Source of the DNA: Candidatus Gottesmanbacteria bacterium
GTDB lineage: Bacteria > Patescibacteriota > Microgenomatia > UBA10105 > UBA927
Assembly (NCBI GenBank): GCA_016214885.1
Contig: JACRMP010000009.1
Coordinates: forward strand, 1 to 34,403
DNA length: 34,403 bases
Reading direction: 5' to 3'
This document shows positions 12,177 through 34,403 of this stretch, in pieces. Position 1 is the first letter of the stretch; each line of letters opens with the position of its first letter. Position numbers and translations under genes: made by a program. The notes under the pieces were generated by a model, which worked only from the letters and a program-made list of their open reading frames with translations, did not search any database and was not told the DNA's origin.

Positions 12177-12247
12177 TGCGGGATCGTATAATGGTAGTAC
12201 AGCAGACTCTGAATCTGCTTATCTAGGTTCGAGTCCTAGTCCCGCAG
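12177..12247 (+). tRNA. tRNA-Gln (anticodon CUG)
   Basis: Acceptor TGCGGGA/TCCCGCA, anticodon arm GCAGA-CTCTGAA-TCTGC, T-arm CTAGG-TTCGAGT-CCTAG, U1-A72. Confidence 0.95.
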
Positions 12248-12259
12248 CATATGCAAACT

Positions 12260-12277
12260 CTGCCCCGGATGGGGCAG
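12260..12277 (+). terminator. hairpin downstream of tRNA-Gln, possible weak terminator
   Basis: CTGCCCC-GGAT-GGGGCAG followed by TATTTGTAT. Confidence 0.4.
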
Positions 12278-12288
12278 TATTTGTATAT

Positions 12289-12431
12289 ACGGGACATTAG
12301 ATGAGAACCTATCCGACGAAGGAGGAATGGTTCGGGAGTACGATGCATTATTGCAACAACGATTGCAATAATAAGCGTAATACTCATGGAGTCCCGTTGT
12401 ACGGGACGAACATCGTCCTAGTCCCACAGCA
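12289..12431 (+). repeat. structured palindromic element ending in a 17-nt copy of the tRNA-Gln 3' end
   Basis: ACGGGAC (12289-12295), hairpin ATTATTGCAA/TTGCAATAAT (12347-12372), GTCCCGT-TGT-ACGGGAC (12391-12407), then GTCCTAGTCCCACAGCA (12415-12431) versus tRNA GTCCTAGTCCCGCAGCA (12233-12249). Confidence 0.6.
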
Positions 12432-34041: not shown

Positions 34042-34131
34042 TTATTTGAGAGTGTTCATTTTTTAAAAGCTCCGTTCGTTAAGCTCCGCACTTTACGATC
34101 CATTCCCATGGGAGTATTAGTGCGGGTTAAT

Positions 34132-34271
34132 GCCGCGTAGTCGCGGCCAGTCCAGGAGTTAACGCCTAAATTATGGTAAAATAGCGCTATAGCCCCGTTC
34201 GCAGTCCAGGAGTTAATGAGTCAATTCTCATTGACGAATATTACTCCTGGTGAGTGTCGCGTAATCGCGAC
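34132..34271 (+). repeat. hairpin and direct-repeat cluster upstream of tRNA-Glu
   Basis: GCCGCG-TAGT-CGCGGC (34132-34147); CAGTCCAGGAGTTAA twice (34148-34162, 34202-34216); long hairpin CCAGGAGT...ACTCCTGG (34206-34250); GTCGCG-TAAT-CGCGAC (34256-34271). Confidence 0.8.
34191..34201 (+). other. partial copy of the tRNA-Glu 5' end (AGCCCCGTTCG)
   Basis: Identical to 34327-34337 at the intact tRNA; a second piece CTAGCGGCC is at 34273-34281. Confidence 0.65.
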
Positions 34272-34327
34272 GCTAGCGGCCGGAGGTGTACTATAAGAAG
34301 CAAGAGATTCGTTAACAAGTAAATAGA

Positions 34328-34401
34328 GCCCCGTTCGTCTAGCGGCCTAGGACGGTTCCTTCTCAAGGAACAAATCGCCGGTTCGAATCCGGCACGGGGT
34401 A
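34328..34401 (+). tRNA. tRNA-Glu (anticodon CUC)
   Basis: Acceptor GCCCCGT/ACGGGGT, anticodon arm GTTCC-TTCTCAA-GGAAC, T-arm GCCGG-TTCGAAT-CCGGC. Confidence 0.94.
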
Positions 34402-34403
34402 CA

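Follow-up and report, generated by a model that had tools for sequence, protein, structure and literature searches.

The stretch of DNA under study, referred to as the window, comprises 34,403 nt and represents contig C5 of a 1.12-Mb assembly of Candidatus Gottesmanbacteria, which, like all genomes compared, is a metagenome assembly. It harbors two intact tRNA genes, tRNA-Gln(CTG) and tRNA-Glu(CTC), each associated with hairpins and with a displaced piece of its own sequence (Table 1). The 3' end of tRNA-Gln, GTCCTAGTCCCGCAGCA (12233-12249), is repeated 166 nt downstream as GTCCTAGTCCCACAGCA (12415-12431) with 16/17 identical positions, and the inserted element is assumed to have supplied the 3' part of the intact gene, from the T-loop to its end. 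In a scan of the 400-nt flanks of 50 of the 51 tRNA matches of the own genome, the Gln copy scored 13, as compared to a maximum of 12 in 569 isotype-mismatched controls. Moreover, a 264-nt fold at this locus, to which the tRNA itself contributes, attains -105 kcal/mol (z = -6.3) and is matched by none of 200 shuffles. The recurrence of the tRNA-Gln 3' end across a folded element, as described in the initial annotation, is thereby corroborated, and the same applies to its statement that each tRNA of the window is accompanied by a partial self-copy, which is a 3' copy in the case of Gln and a 5' copy in the case of Glu. Apart from both tRNAs, Rfam yielded one sub-threshold chance match in the window, with no match to a group I/II intron or any other known RNA family. 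No integrase gene lies near the tRNA-Gln, and no ORF for a GIY-YIG nuclease was found within the window, neither in nor beside the Gln and Glu elements.

Table 1. Features of the tRNA-Gln and tRNA-Glu loci in the window
Feature	Position	Strand	Basis
tRNA-Gln(CTG), intact	12177..12248	+	ARAGORN; Rfam tRNA 63.6 bits
Terminator-like hairpin CTGCCCC..GGGGCAG with TATAC/GTATA ends, directly 3' of tRNA-Gln	12250..12289	+	sequence
Family motif ATGAGAACC-n-GGTTCG (hairpin hp0, GAGAACC...GGTTC)	12301..12334	+	0.01 expected in window
hp1 of the Gln element, long A/T-rich hairpin GGAGTA...TACTC, Gln-specific	12335..12385	+	fold
Second hairpin of the Gln element, short, G/C, GTCCCGttgtACGGGAC	12391..12407	+	sequence, fold
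Displaced copy of the tRNA-Gln 3' end, starting in the T-loop, 16/17	12415..12431	+	sequence, copy scans
Degenerate copy of the Glu double-hairpin module	34073..34131	+	covariance model 24.6 bits
Displaced tRNA-Glu 5' copy GCCCCGTTCG	34192..34201	+	~10 nt after TAAAAT -10 box
Double-hairpin module in the D-arm of the displaced tRNA-Glu copy: hp1, then GTCGCGTAATCGCGAC	34202..34271	+	covariance model 84.7 bits
Remainder of the displaced tRNA-Glu D-arm, CTAGCGGCC	34273..34281	+	sequence
tRNA-Glu(CTC), intact	34328..34402	+	tRNA call; contig break inside tRNA

Several components of the Gln element recur at other tRNA genes. The terminator-like hairpin is found in equal layout at L009, L010 and L011 and at Glu and Asn loci, and the family motif following the terminator is common to the 3'-type elements of tRNA-Gln, Lys, Glu and Asn. 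The subsequent hairpin hp1 bears a partial likeness to a related hairpin after tRNA-Gln(TTG) of genome G005 (L011), and the Gln hairpin is otherwise shared only with the other tRNA-Gln of the own genome (82% over 69 nt). A search for Gln-type hairpins in 286 genomes returned the two own tRNA-Gln loci and one isolated match, and no others.

At the tRNA-Glu locus (34073-34402), the spacing between the -10 box and the displaced 5' copy resembles that of the tRNA in element-free relatives. The window terminates (34403) within a repeat: both the end of C5 and the start of contig C4 (G000:C4 1-118) contain tRNA-Glu(CTC), so that the two contigs probably join there, and on C4 this gene is followed by a 3'-type element. 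Within the genus, the double-hairpin module also occurs at tRNA-Glu, Asn, Cys and Arg. Two-sided changes affect 11 of its 15 pairs across 29 matches, a degree of covariation that none of 500 shuffles reached, in an alignment which was fitted to the tested structure and hence favours covariation. A tandem G-A mismatch in hp1 is nearly invariant. The hairpin fold which the initial annotation had supposed to be common to the Gln and Glu elements did not withstand comparison, as the Glu covariance model reaches no more than 2.4 bits when applied to the Gln element. Scanning of 85,462 species genomes for the module pattern yielded matches in Gottesmanbacteria only, plus one chance coding match.

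Partial self-copies are by no means confined to the window. Among 194 tRNA genes from five Gottesmanbacteria genomes (the own genome and four relatives, the latter partly chosen via module hits), a copy of the same gene's 3' end was detected within 400 nt at 26 and of its 5' end at 14 (score at least 12), while the rates in 3755 controls were 0.27% and 0.37%, respectively; a few of the weaker copies may be due to chance. Hence, the pattern initially noticed at two tRNAs extends to others and to relatives, and in the own genome 3' copies are additionally located beside tRNA-Pro, Glu, Lys and Ile. The breakpoints fall into loops: in 15 of 17 cases the 3' copy starts in the T-loop, and many tRNAs are flanked by a 5' and a 3' copy whose loop breakpoints match, which places the intact gene within a split version of its own sequence. 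This arrangement is seen for tRNA-Pro in G021 (nt 1-16 on one side and a perfect 16-74 on the other) as well as for Gly, Ile, Val and Gln, and some of the inner and displaced pieces are identical. The hairpins of displaced 5' pieces vary, as different ones are present at tRNA-Gln, Lys and Pro (L017 in G001, L279 and L265 in G006), and within this group two hairpins appear in swapped order between two tRNA-Pro elements.

Since the neighbouring genes of the window's tRNA-Gln differ, the comparison of a site with and without an insert comes from tRNA-Lys instead. In the present assembly, this locus exists without (C19) and with (C37) a 3'-type insert, a nuclease-less element. The downstream flanks of both versions agree in 140 of 143 positions, the tRNA sequences do not differ over the part that both contain, and the insert on C37, at which the tRNA end is regenerated, is followed by a repeat of TCCCAGCGGGCTCAC. 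We read C19 and C37 as two strains in the population, the alternative being an assembly error. In addition, DNA upstream of displaced 5' copies was compared with the promoter region of element-free orthologues, giving values of 52 for Lys, 49 for Thr, 45.5 for Gly and 25.5 for both His and Thr-GGT, against a background with a mean of 9 (sd 5.6), while DNA upstream of the intact tRNA never exceeded 13. The outer 5' piece hence occupies the former site of the tRNA. Outer pieces of Val, Thr and Ile furthermore feature complementary acceptor stems of their own, which differ from those of the inner tRNA (for Val, GGATCGT/ACGATCC outside versus GGTCGGT/ACCGACC inside), as expected of a former native gene. 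Presence and absence of the element at orthologous sites are therefore documented by the promoter-matched, element-free orthologues of the full-length relatives and by the C19/C37 pair.

The full-length relatives encode a protein with a GIY-YIG domain, which the Gln and Glu elements of the window lack. The space that separates an intact tRNA from its outer 5' piece often contains a small GIY-YIG ORF, which frequently overruns into the start of the tRNA. Of 29 small GIY-YIG ORFs in the five genomes, 17 terminate no more than 150 nt before a tRNA in the same orientation, with 0.09 expected (binomial P ~1e-35). The nuclease is a single-domain protein of about 80 amino acids encoded on bacterial chromosomes; six proteins match Pfam PF01541 with E values from 4e-13 to 2e-17, the catalytic positions (Tyr, Gly of YIG, Arg, His and Lys/Glu) are kept in 11 sequences, and the nearest solved proteins belong to UPF0213. 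In the nuclease tree, proteins from different genera or families cluster together when both are associated with Glu or both with Pro; in addition, Ile is joined with His, and Leu with Thr, the last two having the common site GCCCRGA-TGG. Across isotypes, the type of hairpin present in a displaced 5' piece is tied to the clade of the nuclease, with a similarity of 0.60 within and 0.26 between clades for hairpins selected by eye (0 of 20000 permutations). Hence, hairpin and nuclease seem to travel together.

Two loci from other families link these ORFs to the layouts of the window. At L007 in G056, tRNA-Gln is followed by a GIY-YIG ORF and the 3' copy CCTAGTCTGGCAGCCA, which equals the Gln layout of the window with a nuclease added. 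At L125 in G035, the tRNA-Glu 5' copy GCGGCGCCTTCG precedes a double hairpin, CTAGCGGCC, a GIY-YIG ORF and tRNA-Glu, and the D-arm position of the hairpins is identical to that of 34202-34271 in the window. Upstream of tRNA-Lys in G035, a decayed nuclease is present of which only the C-terminus is left. Because most 3'-type elements of the genus are devoid of a nuclease, the connection between this type and the nuclease is drawn mainly from L007. No description of tRNA-linked GIY-YIG proteins in CPR bacteria was found in open-access papers.

Taken together, the Gln locus of the window probably represents a small mobile element inserted at the T-loop of tRNA-Gln, belonging to a family that regenerates tRNA ends and whose full-length members carry a homing-type nuclease; we assign a probability of roughly 0.62 to this reading. 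Since the window contains no GIY-YIG ORF and its layouts match those of G056 and G035, both of its elements are classified by layout as nuclease-less members of the family, and they would have been derived from, or moved by, such nucleases. The element would have entered tRNA-Gln at the T-loop and brought along a fresh tRNA 3' end, by virtue of which the gene would have stayed intact, while the original 3' end would have been shifted 166 nt downstream with the hairpins occupying the gap. More generally, the family would be distributed over Gottesmanbacteria and other Microgenomates and use tRNA genes in two orientations. The proposed 5' type comprises the promoter, a displaced tRNA 5' piece with its hairpin, the cargo and the intact tRNA, and the proposed 3' type an intact tRNA followed by a terminator, hairpins and the displaced 3' end; a tRNA that received both types would end up enclosed by the two parts of a split self-copy. 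The nuclease is predicted to cut element-free tRNA genes at a loop, whereupon repair of the break would copy the element in, a process resembling intronless homing, and regeneration of the tRNA end would render the insertion harmless. The hairpins may serve to block renewed cutting of the displaced copy or to prevent its mispairing with the real tRNA.

A different origin was implied by the initial annotation, which likened the Gln locus to a tiny insertion bounded by att sites. A small insertion at the 3' end of the tRNA is indeed what is found, but the remnant of an integrative island is not its best reading. In such a remnant, left by a tyrosine or serine integrase, attL would correspond to the tRNA, as the regenerated half, and attR to the copy, as the displaced end, with subsequent loss of the cargo by deletion. 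T-loop breakpoints as such are also typical of integrases. Copies reaching from the T-loop to the 3' end are classical for islands (Islander, PMC4383910). Large serine recombinases are present at tRNA 3' ends in this lineage, and module arrays with cargo genes exist at G021:C16, G005:C9 and G048:C8. Nevertheless, an island remnant predicts neither 5' copies nor nested whole tRNAs nor GIY-YIG ORFs, and no integrase adjoins the window's tRNA-Gln. Moreover, six tRNAs with an island of a large serine recombinase show no copy of at least 13 nt over 20 kb, and the island junction in G048 coincides with the tRNA 3' terminus (GGGGTAC) instead of the T-loop. On account of the 5' copies, the nested tRNAs, the GIY-YIG ORFs and these six copy-less tRNAs, we regard an island remnant as unlikely. 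That large serine recombinases produced the copies was rejected, given that the six tRNAs with their islands lack T-loop copies. As an observation in its own right, these recombinases repeatedly adjoin tRNA 3' ends (Asn, Pro, Glu, Lys) in antisense direction (L203-L208, G000:C3 62861-63999).

Two further explanations dispense with a mobile element of this kind. Tandem duplication or replication slippage at tRNAs, followed by decay and by entry of unrelated palindromic repeats into the dead copies, would be in line with the tandem repeats that contain the tRNA 3' end at E. coli tyrT, and hairpins such as CCCGCCCGCCATCGC... are present at a nuclease-less tRNA-Ile as well. Such neutral debris would leave the confinement of breakpoints to loops, the recurring layout and the nuclease linkage unaccounted for, and it is further opposed by the hairpin type tracking the nuclease clade and by the clean pair with and without insert at tRNA-Lys, all of which makes it very improbable. 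Still slightly less credence is given to a selected RNA built from the displaced pieces and hairpins, for instance a tRNA-like structure around the real tRNA which controls tRNA processing. The strong covariation of the Glu hairpin with its invariant tandem G-A mismatch speaks for selection, as do the complementary acceptor stems, distinct from the inner tRNA, which the outer pieces of Val, Thr and Ile retain; yet an outer copy that once was the native tRNA would show this complementarity in any case, the presence of the elements is sporadic among close relatives, and many of them lie downstream of a terminator. For the hairpin module as such, a selected tRNA-like RNA is a possible interpretation.

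The preferred reading of a homing-type element that regenerates tRNA ends finds its closest precedents in the mORF gene-end duplications of fungal mitochondria and in SegB of phage T4, which, like the GIY-YIG insertions of CPR rRNA genes, lend support to the predicted mechanism. Nuclease ORFs of fungal mitochondria invade genes while supplying a substitute gene end, the native one being left behind (PMC3630166), and in the tRNA elements, likewise, a replacement end is carried and the native end lies displaced beyond the insert. The mORF cases (Allomyces atp6; Glomus atp6, atp9, cox2 and nad3) thus share an endonuclease ORF and a replacement end in an essential gene, with nucleases of the LAGLIDADG or GIY-YIG type (PMC3630166), the latter being the type of the tRNA elements. 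On the other hand, mORFs concern C-terminal ends of mitochondrial protein genes only, whereas here the 5' end, the 3' end or the whole of bacterial tRNA genes is involved, hairpins reside in the displaced copy and many versions lack a nuclease. SegB, a GIY-YIG enzyme of phages T4/T6, is linked to tRNA genes and cuts inside them (PMC2988022, PMC13096335), preferring RAWTSGAAC (PMC13096335), which in our reading is the reverse complement of the T-loop consensus GTTCSAWTY. Both systems have in common a small free-standing GIY-YIG nuclease, as in intronless homing, and linkage to tRNA genes, and the T-loop sequence preferred by SegB corresponds to the place at which the 3' copies start, but SegB is located between phage tRNA genes and no spare tRNA end is described for it, while the present proteins are single-domain proteins of about 80 amino acids on bacterial chromosomes.

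Other known systems are more remote. In CPR rRNA genes, GIY-YIG ORFs occur in insertions that are not tied to group I/II introns (PMC11270868); hosts are similar and homing nucleases reside in stable-RNA genes in both cases, but these insertions are mainly introns with LAGLIDADG enzymes, and tRNA is absent from that report (PMC11270868). Mitochondrial double-hairpin elements and GC clusters are likewise small, mobile and palindromic, often with two hairpins, yet the available part of the source describes them without tRNA-end regeneration or linked nuclease clades (PMC4478555). Genomic islands targeting tRNAs also combine a regenerated tRNA with a displaced 3' fragment, but are of kilobase size with an integrase and, as far as the accessible portion of the source extends, have neither 5' copies nor nested tRNAs (PMC4383910).

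If the proposed reading is true, a homing element enters essential, intron-free genes by rebuilding the very gene end that it destroys. Homing elements which regenerate gene ends are a known kind from fungal mitochondria, whereas the use of bacterial tRNAs at either end, hairpin-marked displaced copies and abundant nuclease-less versions were not found in the open-access papers searched. This reading would offer an explanation for the numerous orphan GIY-YIG genes of single-domain type in Gottesmanbacteria, for the GIY-YIG insertions without an intron that CPR rRNA genes contain, and for unusual surroundings of tRNA genes, which may be mistaken for integration scars. More tentatively, and with the odds against it, the family might constitute a natural bacterial cleave-and-rescue system, in which elements with a tRNA-cutting GIY-YIG nuclease carry a replacement tRNA end or a whole tRNA, and a swarm of nuclease-less double hairpins spreads by the same route. 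An essential gene would then be target and reward at once, with inner and displaced tRNAs of Val, Thr and Ile differing by compensated stems. Natural cleave-and-rescue elements would be of wider interest.

Finally, some observations concern the double-hairpin module itself. The Glu/Asn module forms arrays with cargo between its copies at L154 (G021:C16), L155 (G021:C8), L088 (G005:C9) and L157 (G048:C8), the cargo including a 125-aa ORF between two identical 90-nt repeats, an RsgA-like GTPase and defence-like genes. These arrays resemble tRNA-anchored cassette arrays and suggested an integron-like reading, with the module as a folded att site and the cargo as cassettes, which was dropped as the main reading because the GIY-YIG link is far stronger. 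The hp1 motif TTAACGAG..CGAGTNTTA is also encountered alone directly after terminators (L100/L126 at secE of G016, L120 at G000:C3 10938 and L119 at G005:C11), upstream of secE, a metG-like gene and other genes, and a general leader RNA was considered for it. At L072 (G002:C29), one module joins two tRNA-Glu genes, combining a T-arm left flank with a D-arm right flank, which suggests recombination between modules.
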